Shown here piece by piece: positions 9,255 to 18,019 of a stretch of 44,005 nucleotides of DNA. Under the pieces are notes generated by a model. That model did no database searches. It was not told where the DNA came from and saw nothing but the letters and a program-made list of their open reading frames with translations. Source of the stretch: Chloroflexota bacterium (GTDB lineage: Bacteria; Chloroflexota; Chloroflexia; Chloroflexales; Roseiflexaceae); NCBI GenBank assembly GCA_030550675.1, contig JAUQOW010000006.1:1-44005 (forward strand), given 5' to 3'. A program made the position numbers and the translations under genes. How positions within the stretch are numbered: the stretch's first letter is position 1; every line of letters begins with the position of its first letter.

Positions 9255-9578
9255 TTCGCGCAACCGTTATGTCCTTAATCAAAAGTAACCGGCTTGCTCC
9301 GTGGCGCGTCCAGGCAGGTGAGGCGATGGCTCACAACTGGCGGCTTTCCCTCTACGGCAAACAACAGCCTTTTTGATGTTCTTTTGTGGGCGTCTCTATG
9401 ACAGCCATGCACCTGCCTTGATGCATACTGTCTCCGCCGATGATCCGGCGTGATCTTCACAGGCGATCTGTCATCAGAAAGGAGGTGGGTCTATCGCAGC
9501 ATAGCGCTTGAGGGACGGCTCGCAGATTCCTGGATTTTTGTTCTCTACTGGAAGATCGCAGAAAGGAGCGTTCTTTCC

Positions 9579-11534
9579 ATGAAGATTCTCGACAAGAAAA
9601 TCGCGCTCGCAATGCTGCTGGCGCTCGTTGCGCCAATTCTGGCAGCCTGCGGCGGCGGCGCTGCGCAACAGCCGGTCCGCGAGACGGTAGTCGTCACAGC
9701 GCCTCCGGCGGTGACGGTTATCCGTGAAACGGTCGTGGCGGAAGGTCCGACGGCGGCGCCGACTGGCGCGTTCAGGACGCCGCATCCGATCCTGAGCGAT
9801 GTGCGCGTGCGCCAGGCAATCGCCTACTGCACCAACCGACCTGAACTGATCCAGTCGGTCTATAGCTACCTGACACCGGAGCAGCAGCAGGAGCTGCTGA
9901 TGGACACCAACCTGCCGAAGACGCACTGGGCGGCGGCCAGCGAAGCGGATGGCATCGTGACCTACCCGTTCGACCCGGAGAAGGGAAGGGCGCTGCTTGA
10001 TGAGGCGGGCTGGAAACTGGCGGAAGGTCAGCGCGTTCGCACAAAAGACGGCGAGCCGTTGTCGCTCGAATTCACGACCACCAACGCGCAGTTCCGCATC
10101 ACCTGGGCGACAGTGCTGGAGAAACAGTTGCTCGATAACTGCGGTATTCAGATCATCCGCAAGCATGCCCCGGCATCCTGGTGGTTCGGCGGCGCCTCCG
10201 GTCTGCGCCGGCGCGACTTCGAGATTGGCGCGTTTGCGTGGGTCGGCGAGGCGGATCCGGGCGGGTATACGCTCTATGCCTGCGACCAGATTCCGCTGCC
10301 GGACAACAACTGGGAGGGCCAGAATTACATGGGTTGGTGCAACGAGACCGCCAGCAGAGCGATCAAAGCGGCGAACAACACGCTGAACCGCGAGGAGCGC
10401 ATCAAGCACTACAAGACGTTCCAGGTCGAGTTCACCAAGGACATGGTCAGCCTGCCGCTGTTCCAGCGCCTGGAGGCGTATGCCTGGAATAAGGCGCTGA
10501 CCGGCTTGAAGCCCGACCCGACCGAGTACATCACCGCCAACGCCTACGAGTGGGGGCGCACTGACAACGGCGATACGATCATCCTGGGCTTCACGCAGGA
10601 GCCAGCCTCGATGTTCTCGCTGGTCGAAAGCGCAGCCGTGCAGGTTCAGGCGGCGCAGCTTGTGTTCGGCGTGTTGAGCACGCAGTACAGCTACGACTTC
10701 CAGCCGGTGCTGCAGGACGGTCTCTCGACGATCGAGAGCGGCAAGGCGAAGAATGAGGTCGTCGAAGTCAAGGAAGGCGACAAGGTCTGGGACGCCACCG
10801 GCGCCGCCGTGGAACTCAAGCCGGGCGTGGAAATCGTCAACTCCGACGGCGAGACGATCAAGTATGAGAGTGGCACGGTGAAGATGAACCAACTCACCGT
10901 CACCTATGACCTTATTCCGGGTATCAAGTGGTCGGATGGCGAGCCGCTGAAGAAGGCGGACCTGGAACTGGCAGTGAAGATCAACTGCGATCGCGAGTCA
11001 GGCGCAGTCAGCTTCACCTTCTGCGACTCGCACGATGGGCTCAACGGCGTGACCTTCAACAGCGACACCAGCTACACCATCAAGTTCCTGCCCGGCGTGC
11101 AGTGGCCGATCTACTTCACCGCTCCCTACGGCGGCTATCCGTCGCATCGCACGATTTCGGACGGGCGGAAACTGGCGGATGTGCCCGCCAAGGAGTGGTC
11201 GACGCTGCCAGAGATCGCTGAGCTGCCGCTGGGGTACGGTCCCTACATCTTGAAGGAATGGAAGAAGAAGGAGTTCATGCGCTTCGAGGCGAACCCGAAC
11301 TTCGTCCTCGGCGCGCCGAAGGTTAAGAACGTCGTCATCCAGTTCTTTGCCGACACCAACGCCGCAGTGGCGGCGCTCCTGACAGGCGAAGTCGACATTC
11401 TGGAGAAGGCGACGCTCGGCGCCGGTCCGGAGGTGGAGACGGTGCTCAAGGCGGCGGCAGAGGGCAAGATTGAAGCCAAGACCGACGCCAGCCCGACCTG
11501 GGAGCATATGGACTTCAACCTCTTTATCCGGTAA
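9579..11534 (+). CDS. Family 5 ABC substrate-binding lipoprotein, apparently circularly permuted
   Basis: A 651-residue extracytoplasmic binding protein. The start at 9579 has GAAAGGAG before it and opens a lipoprotein signal (LALVAPILAAC, lipid-accepting Cys24), then a linker to about residue 65. Residues 66-325 match the C-terminal half of DppA/OppA-type proteins: SDVRVRQAIAYC, YPFDPEKGRALLDEAGW, GAFAWVGEADPGG, REERIKHYKTFQ, LPLFQRLEAYAW. Residues 326-651 match the N-terminal half: DTIILGFTQEPASMF, GIKWSDGEPLKKADLELAV, LGYGPYILKEW, FEANPNF, FADTNAAVAALLTGEVDI, ending at MDFNLFIR. In ordinary members that end is followed directly by the VRVRQA segment found here near the N terminus. Nothing continues the fold after the stop. 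It is first in a dipeptide/oligopeptide-type transporter operon; the substrate is unknown. Confidence 0.93.
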   Translation: MKILDKKIALAMLLALVAPILAACGGGAAQQPVRETVVVTAPPAVTVIRETVVAEGPTAAPTGAFRTPHPILSDVRVRQAIAYCTNRPELIQSVYSYLTPEQQQELLMDTNLPKTHWAAASEADGIVTYPFDPEKGRALLDEAGWKLAEGQRVRTKDGEPLSLEFTTTNAQFRITWATVLEKQLLDNCGIQIIRKHAPASWWFGGASGLRRRDFEIGAFAWVGEADPGGYTLYACDQIPLPDNNWEGQNYMGWCNETASRAIKAANNTLNREERIKHYKTFQVEFTKDMVSLPLFQRLEAYAWNKALTGLKPDPTEYITANAYEWGRTDNGDTIILGFTQEPASMFSLVESAAVQVQAAQLVFGVLSTQYSYDFQPVLQDGLSTIESGKAKNEVVEVKEGDKVWDATGAAVELKPGVEIVNSDGETIKYESGTVKMNQLTVTYDLIPGIKWSDGEPLKKADLELAVKINCDRESGAVSFTFCDSHDGLNGVTFNSDTSYTIKFLPGVQWPIYFTAPYGGYPSHRTISDGRKLADVPAKEWSTLPEIAELPLGYGPYILKEWKKKEFMRFEANPNFVLGAPKVKNVVIQFFADTNAAVAALLTGEVDILEKATLGAGPEVETVLKAAAEGKIEAKTDASPTWEHMDFNLFIR

Positions 11535-11546
11535 TCGCTCTGGCAG

Positions 11547-11587
11547 CGAAATGCGCGTGCGGGGGCAAACCCTGCACGCGCATTTCG
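11547..11587 (+). terminator. Stem-loop between binding protein and permease genes
   Basis: Perfect 14-bp arms at 11547-11560 and 11574-11587 enclose a 13-nt GC-rich loop. There is no U-run. Such a hairpin after a binding-protein gene commonly protects the upstream mRNA or partly terminates, so the binding protein is made in excess over the permeases. A TATAAT lies just after it (11590-11595) without a clear -35 box; a weak internal promoter is possible. Confidence 0.65.
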
Positions 11588-11631
11588 TATATAATTAAAC
11601 CCATAAGATTTTTGCATTCAGGAACGACGGC

Positions 11632-12834
11632 ATGACGACGTATCTCGTGCGACGATTGATCCAGATGGTGATCGTTACCATCCTTTCGGCGATGCTCGGC
11701 TACTCGCTGTTGTACCTTGCGCCGGGCGGACCGTTATTGTTTTTGCAGCAGATTCAGAATACCGGGCAACGCCGGGTGACGGAAGAAGATATTGCGCGAC
11801 TGAAAGCAAGGTATGAGCTTGATCTTTATCTCCCCATCCGCTTTACCCGCTGGCTGGCTGGCTTCCCCGCCGGTCCTATTCAGATTGGCGGCGTCAACCT
11901 GATCCCGCCAGACACTGTTGTGGGATGCGCTATCCCCGGTCAGGTGCGCCTGCGCTACCCGGACGGCACGGTTGAGATCCGGGAAGAAGGGTGCGTGCGG
12001 GCGGTCACCCTGGCAGACCTGGCAGAGCGTCGCACGAGTCGCGGCATTCTGTTCGGCGACTTCGGGCTGTCGCAGCAGATCTCGCGCGACCGTCCAATCA
12101 GCGATCTGCTGATGAGCCGGCTGCCGTACACCATCCAGTTGATGGGGGTGTCAACGCTGCTGGCGATTCTGATTGGCGTGCCAATCGGCATCTACTCGGC
12201 GGTGCGCCAGTATTCGCGCTTCGACTATGCGATGACCGGCATTACGTTCGTTGGCTCGTCGCTGCCGACGCTCTTTATGGGCGTGATGGCGATCCTGGTC
12301 TTCTCGGTGCTGGCAAAGGACGCCGGACTGCCGTATTTGCCGTCGGGCGGCGCGCAGGGCATCCGCAATTATGAGATTCCCTGGATTGGCACAGTCCAGG
12401 CCGGTTCCGCGCTGGATCGCACGCTGCGCTTTATTATGCCGTGCGCCGTGCTGACGTTCTTCAATATCGCTTCCTGGAGCCGCTTCATCCGCTCCAGTAT
12501 GCTTGAAGTGCTGCGGCAGGATTATGTGCGCACAGCGCGCGCCAAGGGCGTGCGCGAGCGCGCGGTGATTATGAAGCACGCGCTGCGCAATGCGCTGATC
12601 CCGTTTGTGACCCTGCTTGCGGGCGTGTTGCCGACGCTGGTGGCGGGCGCGGCAGTGACTGAATCGGTGTTCAACTGGCCCGGCATGGGGCGGCTGCTGG
12701 TCGATGCGCTGTCAAATAGCGATTACACGGTGGCGATGGCGATCCTGTTCATCAGCACCGTTCTGGTGCTGATCGGGTATCTCATCTCCGACATCCTGTA
12801 CACCGTCGTCGATCCGCGCATCCGGCTCACGTGA
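11632..12834 (+). CDS. dppB: ABC transporter permease, DppB-like, with an enlarged external loop
   Basis: A 400-residue inner-membrane permease. The N-terminal MTTYLVRRLIQMVIVTILSAMLG is the first membrane span of DppB proteins, and the EAA motif contacting the ATPase is in DYVRTARAKGVRERAVIMKHALRNALIP; about six spans are expected. The external loop after the first span is unusually long. The usual RW-LAG to FGDFG-S step is interrupted by about 60 residues (about 80-138) holding two cysteines, Cys99 and Cys121. Common members have 305-340 residues. An AGGA sequence precedes the ATG. It follows the binding protein and precedes the second permease by 12 bp. Confidence 0.95.
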   Translation: MTTYLVRRLIQMVIVTILSAMLGYSLLYLAPGGPLLFLQQIQNTGQRRVTEEDIARLKARYELDLYLPIRFTRWLAGFPAGPIQIGGVNLIPPDTVVGCAIPGQVRLRYPDGTVEIREEGCVRAVTLADLAERRTSRGILFGDFGLSQQISRDRPISDLLMSRLPYTIQLMGVSTLLAILIGVPIGIYSAVRQYSRFDYAMTGITFVGSSLPTLFMGVMAILVFSVLAKDAGLPYLPSGGAQGIRNYEIPWIGTVQAGSALDRTLRFIMPCAVLTFFNIASWSRFIRSSMLEVLRQDYVRTARAKGVRERAVIMKHALRNALIPFVTLLAGVLPTLVAGAAVTESVFNWPGMGRLLVDALSNSDYTVAMAILFISTVLVLIGYLISDILYTVVDPRIRLT

Positions 12835-12846
12835 GGAGCGTAACGC

Positions 12847-13851
12847 ATGGCTACCACGACATCGACACCGGCGGCGTCTGGCGCTATTGAGCGATTGCAG
12901 TCGCGTTCCGAAGGACAGTGGGCGGTCGTCTTCCGCCGGTTCCGCCGCCATCGCCTGGCAATGGCAAGTCTCGCCATTCTGATCATTATCTTTGGCGCGT
13001 CGATCCTGGCGCCGTGGATCGCGCCCTTCCCGCGCGACGAGATAGGGCTGAACCGCACTCGCCTGCCGCCGATGAGCGCCGATCCGGTGACCGGGCAACT
13101 CCACATCCTCGGCACTGACCACCTGGGACGCGACTTCTTCACCCGCGTGATTTACGCAGCGCGTGTGTCGCTTATGGTCGCAATTTCGGTCACAACCCTG
13201 GTGGCGATCATCGGTTCGATCCTGGGTCTGCTGTCGGGATTCTTCGGCGGTTGGGTCGATAATACGATCAGCCGCATTATGGAGTTCGTGGCAACCATCC
13301 CGGACCTGCCGATTCTGCTGATCCTTAGTGCGATTATGATCCAGAACGCTGACCTGATTGTGCTGCCGTCCTGGATCATTGGTCCGGTCGCCTGGATTAT
13401 GGCGGTGCCGAACCGCGAGGCGACGCAGGTGGCGCTGCTGATCCTGGTGCTCGCATCGCTCGGTTGGGTCGGCGTGGCGCGCCTTATGCGCGGCATGGTG
13501 CTCCAGGTGCGCGAGATGCAGTACATCGAATCGGCGCGCGCTCTCGGCGGCTCGAGCGCCTGGATCCTGTTTAAGCACGTCTTCCCGAATGCCTTCCCGC
13601 CGTTGATCGTGGCGTTTACCCTCGGTCTCAACGGCGCGCTGGTGAGTGAGGTGGCGATCAGTTTCCTTGGCTTCGGCGTGCAGGATCCGACCCCAACCTG
13701 GGGCAACATGATGGGCTTTGCTACCAGTTATATGTTCAATCATCCGTGGATGCCGCTCATCCCCGGTCTGCCGATCTTTCTCTGTTCGCTGGCGTTCAAT
13801 TTTATTGGCGACGGGTTGCGTGATGCGCTCGATCCGCGATTGAAACTGTAA
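12847..13851 (+). CDS. dppC: ABC transporter permease, DppC-like
   Basis: A 334-residue second permease subunit. It has the N-terminal region typical of DppC (VVFRRFRRHRLAMASLAILI, a span, then a short external part with LGTDHLGRDFFTRVIYAARVSL), several further spans and the EAA motif in MQYIESARALGGSSAWILFKHVFPNAFPPL. The end GDGLRDALDPRL is characteristic of the subfamily. GAGGAG precedes the ATG, and the gene follows dppB by 12 bp. With DppB it forms the membrane channel of the transporter. Confidence 0.96.
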   Translation: MATTTSTPAASGAIERLQSRSEGQWAVVFRRFRRHRLAMASLAILIIIFGASILAPWIAPFPRDEIGLNRTRLPPMSADPVTGQLHILGTDHLGRDFFTRVIYAARVSLMVAISVTTLVAIIGSILGLLSGFFGGWVDNTISRIMEFVATIPDLPILLILSAIMIQNADLIVLPSWIIGPVAWIMAVPNREATQVALLILVLASLGWVGVARLMRGMVLQVREMQYIESARALGGSSAWILFKHVFPNAFPPLIVAFTLGLNGALVSEVAISFLGFGVQDPTPTWGNMMGFATSYMFNHPWMPLIPGLPIFLCSLAFNFIGDGLRDALDPRLKL

Positions 13852-13867
13852 GAGAATAGAACGAGTT

Positions 13868-14905
13868 GTGACGACCTCATCAGTTCCTGCGCCAGCAGTC
13901 GCTCCGCACAAAACGGCTGTCAATGGCGATGTTCTCCTCGAGGTTCGAGGATTGAAGACCTATTTCTTTACCGAGGCTGGCGTGGTGCGCGCCGTTGATG
14001 GCATCGACCTGACGGTGCGCCGCGGCGAGGCGCTCGGTATTGTCGGCGAAAGCGGGTGCGGCAAAAGCGTGACATCGCTCTCGATTATGCGCCTGATCCA
14101 GGACCCGCCAGGGAAAATCGTCGAGGGCGAGATTATCTTCGATGGCGTGAATATTCGCTCGCTCAGCGAAGAGGATATGCGCCATATCCGCGGCAACCGC
14201 ATCTCGATGATCTTTCAGCAGCCGACGACATGCCTCAATCCGGTGTTCAGAGTCGGCGATCAGATCATCGAAGCGCTCGAAATCCATCAGGGGTTGCGCG
14301 GCGAAGAGGCTCGCAAACGCGCCATTGAACTCTTCACGCTTGTCGGTCTGCCCGACCCAGAACGGCGTATCAACCAGTATCCGCACGAATTGTCGGGCGG
14401 GCAGGCGCAGCGCGTGATGATTGCAATGGCGCTGGCGTGCAACCCGGAACTCCTGATCGCCGATGAACCGACGACGGCGCTCGACGTGACGATTCAGGCG
14501 CAGATCCTCGACCTCATGCGCGAATTGCGCGAGAAGATCAATACGGCGATTATCCTGATCACCCACGATATGGGGGTGGTCGCCGAAATGGTCGACTCGG
14601 TCGCGGTGATGTATGCCGGTCAGATTGTCGAGTACGCTGATGTGCGCAGTCTTTTCGCCGAGCCAAAACATCCCTATACGCAGGGGTTGCTGGCATCGAT
14701 CCCGGTCCTGGGCGAAATCGTCGAGGAACTGGCGACCATTCCCGGCACGGTGCCAAGCCTGATTAATCCGCCAACCGGTTGCCGCTTCGCCGAACGCTGC
14801 GCGAAACGGTTTGCGCGCTGCGATGAGCCGCCGCCGATGTTTACGCTGGAGGGCGGACGACAGGTGCGCTGCTGGCTGTATGCGCCCGATGCGCAATCTT
14901 CCTGA
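13868..14905 (+). CDS. dppD: Peptide-type ABC transporter ATPase, DppD-like (copy 1)
   Basis: A 345-residue ATPase starting with GTG. It shows Walker A GESGCGKS, signature LSGGQAQR, Walker [13 protein letters not shown] and the H-loop in LITHDMGVV. The C-terminal oligo-HPY extension carries four cysteines in GCRFAERCAKRFARCDE and VRCW; related DppD/OppD proteins bind a 4Fe-4S cluster there. The Q-loop region reads IFQQPTTCLNPV instead of the usual [10 protein letters not shown] seen in copy 2, and the signature has QAQR where copy 2 has MRQR. It follows dppC by 16 bp. It is the first of a D-F-D-F ATPase series. Confidence 0.94.
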   Translation: MTTSSVPAPAVAPHKTAVNGDVLLEVRGLKTYFFTEAGVVRAVDGIDLTVRRGEALGIVGESGCGKSVTSLSIMRLIQDPPGKIVEGEIIFDGVNIRSLSEEDMRHIRGNRISMIFQQPTTCLNPVFRVGDQIIEALEIHQGLRGEEARKRAIELFTLVGLPDPERRINQYPHELSGGQAQRVMIAMALACNPELLIADEPTTALDVTIQAQILDLMRELREKINTAIILITHDMGVVAEMVDSVAVMYAGQIVEYADVRSLFAEPKHPYTQGLLASIPVLGEIVEELATIPGTVPSLINPPTGCRFAERCAKRFARCDEPPPMFTLEGGRQVRCWLYAPDAQSS

Positions 14906-14920
14906 AATGGACAGAATCGT

Positions 14921-15928
14921 ATGGCGACTGTAACACAGCGCAGCGTGTCGAACGATACGCTGCTGGAAGTCAATAACCTGGTCAAGCATTTTCCGATCAA
15001 AGGCGGCATTCTGCGCCGCACCGTCGCGGTCGTCAAGGCGGTCGACGGCGTCAGCTTCACGATCAAGCGCGGCGAAACGCTTGGGCTGGTCGGTGAGAGC
15101 GGCTGCGGCAAAACCACCACCGGGCGCACGATCCTGCGCCTCGAAAAGGCGACCGATGGCGAGGTGATCTTTGAAGGAAAGGATGTGCTCGCTGCCTCCG
15201 GCAGCCAGCTCAAGGCGCTCCGCCGCGATATGCAAATTGTCTTTCAAGACCCGTATGCCTCGCTCGACCCGCGCATGACGATCGGCGAAAGCGTGGCGGA
15301 AGGGTTGACCATCCACGGCATCGGCAGCAAAGCCGAGCGTATCGAGCGGGTGCGCGAAGTGCTGGCGAAAGTCGGCATGCACCCAAGCCATATGGAACGC
15401 TTCCCGCACGAATTCTCCGGCGGGCAGCGGCAGCGCATCGGCATCGCGCGCGCGCTGGTGATGAACCCCAAATTGATCGTGTGCGACGAGCCGGTGTCGG
15501 CGCTCGATGTGTCGATCCAGTCGCAGGTGCTCAACCTGCTGCGCAATCTGCAACAGGAATTCGGGCTGACCTATTTGTTCATCGCGCATAACCTCAGCGT
15601 CGTCGAGCATATCAGCAACCGCGTCGGCGTCATGTACCTGGGGAAGATGGTCGAACTGGCGGATCGCACTGAGCTTTTCCGCCGTCCGCTCCATCCGTAC
15701 ACGAAAGCGCTGATTTCCGCCATCCCGATCCCCAACCCGAACATCCGGCGCGAACGGATTATTCTGCAGGGGGATGTGCCTAGCCCGATCAACCCGCCGA
15801 AAGGGTGCCGCTTCCATCCGCGCTGCTGGATGGCGCGCGACATCTGCCGCGAGGTTGAACCAGCCTTTGAGGAAAAAACGTCTGGACACTGGTCAGCATG
15901 CCATTTCGCTCATGAAGTTTCGCCCTGA
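14921..15928 (+). CDS. dppF: Peptide-type ABC transporter ATPase, DppF-like (copy 1)
   Basis: A 335-residue ATPase of the DppF/OppF type. The N-terminal [25 protein letters not shown] is diagnostic of this partner subunit. Walker A is GESGCGKTT, the Q-loop [12 protein letters not shown], the signature [15 protein letters not shown], Walker [13 protein letters not shown], and the H-loop FIAHNLSVV. The C-terminal oligo-HPY part has Cys residues in [15 protein letters not shown]. It lies 15 bp after copy 1 of dppD and would form the asymmetric ATPase dimer with it. Confidence 0.95.
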
Positions 15929-15940
15929 TGGAGATCGCCC

Positions 15941-16960
15941 ATGTCACAACCGCTGCTCGTCGTTAAGAACCTCGAGACTCAGTTCAAGACTCAGGATGGC
16001 GTCGTCAAGGCTGTCAACAACGTTTCTTTCCACGTGGATCGCGGTGAGACTCTCGGCATCGTCGGCGAGAGCGGTTCGGGAAAGAGCGTCACCTCGCTGT
16101 CGATCATGCGCCTCATTCCCAATCCGCCAGGAAAAATCGTCGGCGGAGAGATTATCTTCGACGGCGAGAATCTGCTCGATTACACGGAAGAGGAGATGCG
16201 CCACATTCGCGGTAACCGGATTGCGATGATCTTTCAAGACCCAATGACCTCGCTCAATCCGGTGCTGACGATCGGGCGGCAGATCACTGAGTCGCTTGAA
16301 CTTCACATGAAACTGACCCCCAGAGAAGCGCGTAATCGAGCGATTGAACTGTTGCAGATGGTCGGCATTCCCAGCGCCGCGCGGCGTATTGATGACTACC
16401 CGCACCAGTTCTCCGGCGGCATGCGGCAGCGCGTGATGATTGCGATGGCGCTGTCGTGCAACCCGGAACTGCTGATTGCCGATGAGCCGACGACCGCGCT
16501 TGATGTGACGATTCAGGCGCAGATCCTGGAACTCATTCAGCGGTTGCAGCACGAACTCGGCACGGCTGTCATTATCATCACCCATGACCTTGGAGTGGTC
16601 GCCGGGATGGCAGACCGGGTCATCGTCATGTATGCCGGGCGGATCGTGGAAGAAGGACCCACCGAAGAGATTTTCGCCCGTCCGCGTATGCCGTACACTA
16701 TCGGGCTGCTGCGCTCGATTCCGCGTCTCGATGAGGAGGAGGGGCGCAAGCTGACGCCGATCCGCGGTCTGCCGCCAGACCTGATCAACCTGCCGCAGAT
16801 CTGCCCGTTCAGCCCGCGCTGCGACTACTTCATCCCCGGCAAGTGCGACCAGCAGGTTCCGCCGTTGCGCGAGGTGGTTCCCGGTCACAAGGCGGCCTGC
16901 CTGTTCGACATCACCCTTGAAACGCCGCTCCCTACCACCGGCGGCGAAGTGCCAGCGTAA
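15941..16960 (+). CDS. dppD: Peptide-type ABC transporter ATPase, DppD-like (copy 2)
   Basis: A 339-residue ATPase closely similar to the DppD-like copy at 13868. It has canonical motifs: Walker [10 protein letters not shown]-loop [11 protein letters not shown], signature [15 protein letters not shown], Walker [14 protein letters not shown]-loop IITHDLGVV. The C-terminal oligo-HPY part has Cys residues in [19 protein letters not shown] and KAACLF, the possible 4Fe-4S site. A GGAG sequence precedes the ATG. It starts 12 bp after dppF copy 1. Because its motifs are fully standard, it may be the main D subunit, while copy 1 is the derived one. Confidence 0.95.
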
Positions 16961-16987
16961 CTGTACAGCGAATGAGGGACGAGTGCG

Positions 16988-18019
16988 ATGAGCGAAGCTT
17001 CGACTGATCTGATTCAGGTGCGCAACCTGAAGATGCATTTCCCGGTCATGAAGGGCGCGATTATCAAGCGCACCGTCGGGTATATCAAAGCGGTCGATGG
17101 AGTGACATTCTCGATCAAGCGCGGCGAGACCCTGGGGCTGGTCGGCGAGAGCGGCTGCGGTAAATCGACCACCGGGCGCGCTATCCTGCAACTCTACAAG
17201 CCAACCGCTGGCGAGGTGCTGTTTCAGGGAACCGATCTGACCCGGTTGAAGGGTGAAGAGTTGCGGCGTATGCGGCGCAAGGTGCAGATGATCTTCCAGG
17301 ACCCGTATGCGTCGCTCAACCCGCGCATGACGGTCGGCGACATTATTGGCGAGCCGATTGCGGTGCATAACCTGCGCCAGGGGAAGGCTGCCATCCGCGA
17401 GCGCGTCCAGGAACTGCTTGAACTTGTCGGTCTCAACCCCTATTTCATCAACCGCTATCCCCACGAGTTCTCCGGCGGGCAGCGGCAACGCATCGGCATC
17501 GCGCGCGCCCTGGCGGTCGAGCCGGAGTTCGTGGTCTGCGACGAGCCGGTGTCGGCGCTCGACGTGTCGATTCAGGCGCAGGTGCTCAATTTGCTCGAAG
17601 ACCTCCAGCATCGCCTGGGGCTGACCTACCTGTTTATCGCGCACGGTCTGGCAGTGGTGAAACACATTAGCGACCGGGTGGCGGTGATGTACCTGGGGAA
17701 GGTCGTTGAACTGGCGGAGGGGAAGAAACTCTACGCCATGCCGATGCATCCCTACACGCAGGCGCTCCTGTCTGCCGCTCCCATTCCCGACCCGACCGTC
17801 GAGCGGAAGCGGCAACGCATCATCCTGGAAGGCGACGTGCCAAGTCCGCTCAATCCGCCGCCGGGATGCCACTTCCATACCCGCTGCCCCATTGCTATCG
17901 ACCGCTGCAAAGTCGAAGAGCCGCCGTTCAAGGACTACGGCGACGGGCATTTCGTCGCCTGCTGGCGCGCGCCAGAGTCAATCGAGTTGATGGAGCAGTA
18001 CGCAGTGCGTCCGTCGTAG
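16988..18019 (+). CDS. dppF: Peptide-type ABC transporter ATPase, DppF-like (copy 2)
   Basis: A 343-residue DppF-type ATPase, last gene of the transporter operon. The N-terminal [24 protein letters not shown] is typical of the F subunit. Walker A is GESGCGKST, the Q-loop [12 protein letters not shown], the signature [15 protein letters not shown], Walker [12 protein letters not shown]. The H-loop reads FIAHGLAVV, keeping the His but with Gly after it. The C-terminal oligo-HPY domain has [11 protein letters not shown]. Gene order and similarity to the copy at 14921 show that a dppD-dppF pair was duplicated. A repeat hairpin follows at 18067. Confidence 0.95.

Follow-up and report, generated by a model that had tools for sequence, protein, structure and literature searches.

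A circularly permuted family 5 substrate-binding protein and an insert-bearing DppB permease in a Dpp-type operon of Chloroflexota

Introduction

Circular permutation has been described among the substrate-binding proteins (SBPs) of ABC importers. TpMglB-2 (Tp0684) of Treponema, a 'type Ic / cluster Bc' SBP, is permuted and lipidated and still binds and closes, and its authors also speculated on anchoring (PMC4990184). The glycine betaine-binding proteins OpuAC and ProX stand in a circular permutation relationship that is structure-based, with less than 24% identity between them (PMC2395249). In the dipeptide importer DppABCDF of Escherichia coli, a scoop of the permease DppB fills the cleft between the lobes of the binding protein DppA, and deletion of the scoop impairs transport (PMC12136057).

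Here we describe P0001, a protein encoded in a Chloroflexota genome within a window of 44,005 nucleotides, the whole stretch of DNA that was analysed. P0001 resembles DppA, OppA, AppA and NikA (PF00496, cluster C) in both of its halves, in the predicted fold of lobe II and in its lipoprotein signal, and its gene heads a dpp/opp-type operon, as do those of ordinary cluster C SBPs. It differs from these proteins in that its halves are exchanged and its new ends appear to lie beside a hinge strand. A natural permutation, a predicted lipid anchor and retention over many species are features in common with TpMglB-2, but the latter is a cluster B glucose binder whose break lies inside the N lobe and which has an added fourth hinge crossing. 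OpuAC and ProX offer a second case of a permutation relationship among SBPs, although they belong to another SBP cluster and no linked permease change was reported there. The importer architecture resembles that of E. coli DppABCDF, in which the DppB scoop contacts both DppA lobes (PMC12136057); however, E. coli DppA has the ordinary order and E. coli DppB has no hairpin after the scoop.

Results

The two parts of P0001 occur in reversed order

A first-pass annotation had described a permuted DppA/OppA-type protein that retains a lipoprotein signal in front. Re-reading of the DNA upheld the open reading frame, motifs and coordinates given there (Table 1), and the description itself was borne out by profile, rotation, structure and phylogeny. 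The AAAGGAG sequence upstream supports the ATG at 9579 as the start codon. Cys24 was invariant across 47 aligned permuted members, and a lipobox-like motif was present in 88 of 92 permuted proteins.

Table 1. Coordinates of the permuted SBP gene, its parts and its operon within the window
Feature	Position	Strand	Evidence
Ribosome-binding-site-like AAAGGAG, 10 bases 5′ of ATG	9562..9568	+	
P0001, family 5 substrate-binding lipoprotein, permuted, 651 aa	9579..11534	+	Profile, rotation, AlphaFold2
P0001 signal peptide and lipobox LAAC, residues 1-24; predicted lipidation at Cys24	9579..9650	+	
Disordered linker, residues 25-65	9651..9773	+	pLDDT mostly <50
Family C-terminal part (lobe II and C-terminal piece of lobe I), residues 66-325	9774..10553	+	
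Joint GRTDNG, residues 326-331, old C terminus fused to old N terminus	10554..10571	+	G048 comparison, rotation optimum 326-332
Family N-terminal part (lobe I), residues 332-651, last element putative hinge strand ..SPTWEHMDFNLFIR	10572..11531	+	
Strong intercistronic RNA hairpin between SBP gene and dppB	11545..11588	+	-39.3 kcal/mol for 11535-11600, z -8.3
Cognate permease of DppB type, 400 aa	11632..12834	+	PDB match E. coli DppB 8z1v, 3.1e-47
DppB insert, TM1-TM2 extracytoplasmic region, directly after scoop	11878..12024	+	
DppC-type permease	12847..13851	+	Conserved downstream position
DppD-type ATPase	13868..14905	+	
DppF-type ATPase	14921..15928	+	
Second DppD-type ATPase	15941..16960	+	
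Second DppF-type ATPase	16988..18019	+	

P0001 is an SBP_bac_5 (DppA/OppA, cluster C) lipoprotein in which the C-terminal part lies ahead of the N-terminal part. SBP_bac_5 was the sole Pfam family that it matched, and assignment to the TpMglB-2 type (cluster B, MglB-like) found no support. The PF00496 score was 152 bits over two stretches, against a curated cut-off of 32.4; in the frame of P0001, positions 9768-10277 corresponded to profile positions 205-358, followed by 10866-11519 corresponding to profile positions 8-207. Because P0001 is not linear along PF00496, we classed it as a permuted variant rather than an ordinary member. NCBIfam equivalog cut-offs were missed (DppA, 40 of 1005 bits; Opp4A, 127 of 650 bits), and with all scores far below cut-off a substrate call from family models was ruled out.

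We then compared alternative orders of the chain. A family HMM of length 643 was made from 13 ordinary-order relatives. Native P0001 split into two matches, residues 69-328 to profile positions 388-641 (273.6 bits) and residues 331-648 to positions 79-378 (212.7 bits), whereas P0001 reordered at residue 330 gave a single match over profile positions 10-640 of 643 with 528.5 bits. In a rotation scan, the mature part of P0001 was rotated in ten-residue steps and scored globally against seven ordinary proteins. The best rotation was at residue 326 for six of these proteins and at residue 336 for the seventh, and the native order scored below the median rotation against all seven. Against G048 (L033:5625-7553), the nearest ordinary protein, the scores were 610 for the native order, 764 for the median and 1008 for the best rotation. 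A better fit of the linear order was ruled out by the scan and the HMM together, and the reversed order is confirmed as real, far beyond chance.

G048 also shows what the region looks like when it is uninterrupted. The ordinary order at the break is ..VWEHMDFNFNRTDDLTQPSLLADLVIRQA..; the permuted chain ends at ..TWEHMDFNLFIR, and ..RTPHPILSDVRVRQA.. lies towards its front, behind the linker. A bridge of some six residues (..EW-GRTDNG-DTIILGFTQEPASM..) connects the C terminus of the ordinary form, ..NPTEYVTWNIADWEAPPRDN, with the mature start of that form, DTVIIGMSQEPDTM.., and the cut is clean relative to G048.

The predicted fold places the new ends beside a hinge strand

An AlphaFold2 model of P0001 from an alignment of 47 sequences gave one confident fold (mean pLDDT 88.1, pTM 0.82), with disorder confined to the signal and linker. 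Superposition with sequential aligners placed model residues 68-328 on the C-terminal parts of AppA (residues 274-520, Z 24.6) and NikZ (residues 249-494, Z 23.9); C-terminal parts of AppA, NikZ, DppA-type and NikA proteins matched this stretch at Z 20-25, the matches listed covering the C-terminal half of the family (lobe II).

The last long strand of P0001 was predicted at residues 632-646. It carries ..SPTWEHMD and is unbroken, with the chain terminating soon afterwards. By homology, we read this WEHMD strand as one of the two hinge strands, which would put the new C terminus just past the strand and the new mature start in the adjoining lobe II. Of the two covalent connections across the hinge, one would then be open, and the lipid anchor would lead to lobe II, not lobe I. 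It had been proposed that the new ends lie on the strand joining the halves; they do fall beside a hinge strand, but the break comes a few residues past the intact strand rather than on it.

The position aligned with the dipeptide-binding Asp of DppA (P0001 residue 224) was Q in 55 and E in 32 of 98 sequences, with S and D also present. As an acidic residue is not conserved there, peptide is only a candidate ligand.

Permuted proteins are widespread and form a single clade

Matching the two halves separately, we found 98 permuted sequences, partly redundant, in Chloroflexia and Anaerolineae. Full-length permuted orthologues were present in all five congeners searched (90-95% identity), one of them a single-contig genome of 5.8 Mb, and others, mostly with 54-86% identity, were spread over two families of the order. 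Single-contig genomes from other families (G045, G047, G162 and G442) had the permuted order as well. When 84,980 species genomes were scanned, 128 relatives were confirmed, and each of the 80 retained loci contained a permuted gene. Chloroflexia accounted for some of these loci and Anaerolineae-type lineages, among them Bellilinea, Caldilineaceae and Roseilinea, for others. A few MAGs in the scan carry the titles of other organisms and are probably mislabelled. Among 400 Chloroflexota genomes, 44 had a strong match to the permuted SBP, and all matches in the PLSDB plasmid collection were below 60% identity.

A tree that combined 55 permuted with 16 ordinary SBPs placed the permuted proteins in one clade (support 100), with ordinary-order G048 as sister outside it (support 95). 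The C-terminal half alone and the N-terminal half alone each recovered the permuted clade at 100%, as expected if a single gene was permuted, and the nearest ordinary protein was G048 for both halves. The permutation is thus conserved and monophyletic, one event kept over many genera. Its proposed origin by tandem duplication is plausible, but no intermediate was seen among the loci examined. Ordinary SBP genes adjoining permuted ones (L103, L120, L130, L132, L133 and L138) were considered as a trace of such a duplication and rejected, as they formed a separate clade in the tree and are not sister to the permuted proteins.

Two cysteine pairs were also followed. The pair 470/482 of P0001 recurs in ordinary G048 and G087, and its pair 84/188 in ordinary proteins other than these. 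Cys84/Cys188 was therefore ruled out as a hallmark of the permuted form, and the presence of the two pairs in different ordinary proteins implies that at least one was gained or lost repeatedly.

Several relatives depart from the common form. In a single-contig Chloroflexus-like genome (L034:4408-6340; G054:C1:2870428-2872339), the permuted gene is split into two frames, of 445 and about 205 aa, by a frameshift, as a pseudogene or through sequencing error; the dpp genes that follow form an intact operon. Permuted paralogues of about 820 aa (L036:4032-6482 and L049:4727-7189) have no lipobox and carry an extra C-terminal domain, which in L036 ends in YLPIINR; no dpp genes were found near the paralogue of this type in the same record (L134), and these proteins are possibly surface-anchored receptors without a permease of their own. 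A divergent permuted paralogue (39%) in a congener (L037:4384-6321), in which an N-terminal membrane anchor replaces the lipobox, clusters with another divergent protein of permuted order (L152:2427-4313). A single-contig congener contains the C-terminal part of a permuted paralogue by itself (L035:6428-7573, 56% identical), probably a gene remnant. Finally, L047:1656-3716 (G079) is a fast-evolving permuted member with an enlarged segment past the joint and no dppB detectable beside it.

The permuted gene is followed by permease and ATPase genes

dppB lay immediately 3′ of the permuted SBP gene in 65 of the 71 loci with enough sequence, usually followed by dppC, dppD and dppF; it was absent from beside the permuted gene at some paralogue loci, e.g. 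L093, L094, L104 and L134. Behind the ordinary gene of G048 come dppB and dppC, then one lipoprotein-like gene that separates these from dppD and dppF. Judged from its sequence and gene neighbourhood, P0001 is very likely an importer receptor.

RNA hairpins commonly separate highly expressed SBP genes from the permease genes that belong to them; the one found here has a 19-bp stem and is not followed by a T run. The window contains two consecutive dppD-dppF ATPase pairs (13868-18019), and many relatives outside the genus have one pair in the DNA examined.

The partner DppB carries an insert predicted to form a hairpin

A linked change in DppB is a second observation, beyond the original finding of the permutation. 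DppB partners of permuted SBPs have about 400 residues, compared with 306-355 in most other DppBs, and the extra 40-50 residues lie between the post-TM1 scoop region and the GDFG segment. The insert has the consensus RW..G.P.GP..IGG...F....VGC...(about 20)...GC...V.L.DL, with two invariant cysteines. AlphaFold2 predicted a two-stranded hairpin (residues 96-108 and 114-126) with Cys99 and Cys121 on opposite strands. Of 67 DppBs paired with a permuted SBP, 65 had a TM1-TM2 stretch of 92-109 residues that contained exactly two Cys, the remaining two being poorly delimited by the search pattern; in measurable unpaired DppBs the stretch comprised 39-71 residues. The DppB of G048 has no insert.

Insert-bearing DppBs formed one clade (support 99) in a tree made without poorly filled columns. 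In the 400-genome sample the insert occurred in 44 genomes, 43 of which also had the permuted SBP, and each trait was found alone once. G491 has a permuted SBP and no DppB insert. G059 has the insert alone, on a 4.6-kb contig that ends upstream of dppB, so the SBP gene may simply be missing from it. Since the correlation of the two traits amounts to one event on the tree, it indicates co-inheritance, not causation. The insert adjoins the scoop, which in E. coli enters the SBP cleft; this makes contact between the predicted hairpin and the permuted receptor a reasonable expectation, and by this analogy the arm probably touches the receptor.

Discussion

Computational comparison established the permuted order, its single origin and conservation, the operon pairing, the DppB insert and the co-inheritance of the two traits. 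Beyond this, we infer import function, an altered hinge and a docking role for the hairpin. Our explanation as a whole, to which we assign a probability of about 0.85, is that P0001 is the permuted receptor of a Dpp/Opp-type importer that arose by one circular permutation and works with an arm-bearing DppB. The gene product would be a lipid-anchored substrate receptor. Its ancestor would have formed from an ordinary family 5 binding protein whose chain opened just past one hinge strand, whose original ends became connected through a few residues and whose lipoprotein signal stayed in front. The receptor would keep the two-lobe flytrap fold and pass its ligand to DppBC, with DppD and DppF supplying the drive. 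One hinge strand would now end free rather than running into the next lobe, and because of the permutation the anchor would lead straight into lobe II beside the hinge. The partner DppB gained its predicted hairpin arm, adjoining the scoop, at roughly the same point in the tree.

The source genome is a draft in 446 contigs, which could raise the suspicion that a tandem or normally ordered gene was misassembled or collapsed. That explanation has a negligible chance of being correct and is refuted by the same order in independent assemblies, namely the five congeners at 90-95% identity and the single-contig genomes of other families. Domain shuffling, in which C-terminal and N-terminal halves from two paralogues were fused in a new order, is improbable: each half alone gave the permuted clade at 100% with G048 as the nearest ordinary protein, although ordinary SBP genes do adjoin permuted ones in some Anaerolineae loci, and the former share Cys pair 84/188 with P0001 while G048 and G087 share 470/482.

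The permutation may have been a neutral accident and the DppB hairpin, with some unrelated task, carried along in the operon. We regard this as not far short of an even chance, given that each trait changed a single time and at about one place in the tree, so that one coincidence is enough, and that permuted TpMglB-2 binds and closes normally (PMC4990184); against it, the insert, with its two invariant cysteines, adjoins the scoop that contacts the SBP and is retained in every case in which a permuted SBP comes with a dppB of its own. A new docking mode, in which the DppB hairpin would grip either the freed hinge strand and the lobe I C terminus or the relocated anchor, is a tentative idea that we consider rather unlikely. 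As for the ligand, the protein might be a sensor, or a receptor for a sugar, metal-chelate or other non-peptide compound, instead of a peptide importer receptor. Family 5 also includes binders of nickel complexes, sugars and opines, and the DppA Asp is not kept in permuted proteins, which makes this a serious possibility even though we lean against it: an operon with two permeases and ATPases favours import, and the peptide binders 2d5w and AppA are among the best structural matches.

Permutation was known for glucose and glycine betaine SBPs. Our search of open-licence papers found no report of a permuted family 5 (cluster C) SBP, the peptide/nickel group, in line with the first-pass annotation, which knew of none; the precedents belong to other SBP clusters. 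The permutation described here falls on a single datable branch, next to a sister of ordinary order with a comparable operon context, and goes together with a structural change in the SBP-docking region of the permease; questions about the hinge, the anchor and SBP-permease recognition thereby become directly testable. If the new docking mode were true, receptor topology and permease would have evolved together, giving rise to a separate class of ABC importer within Chloroflexota.
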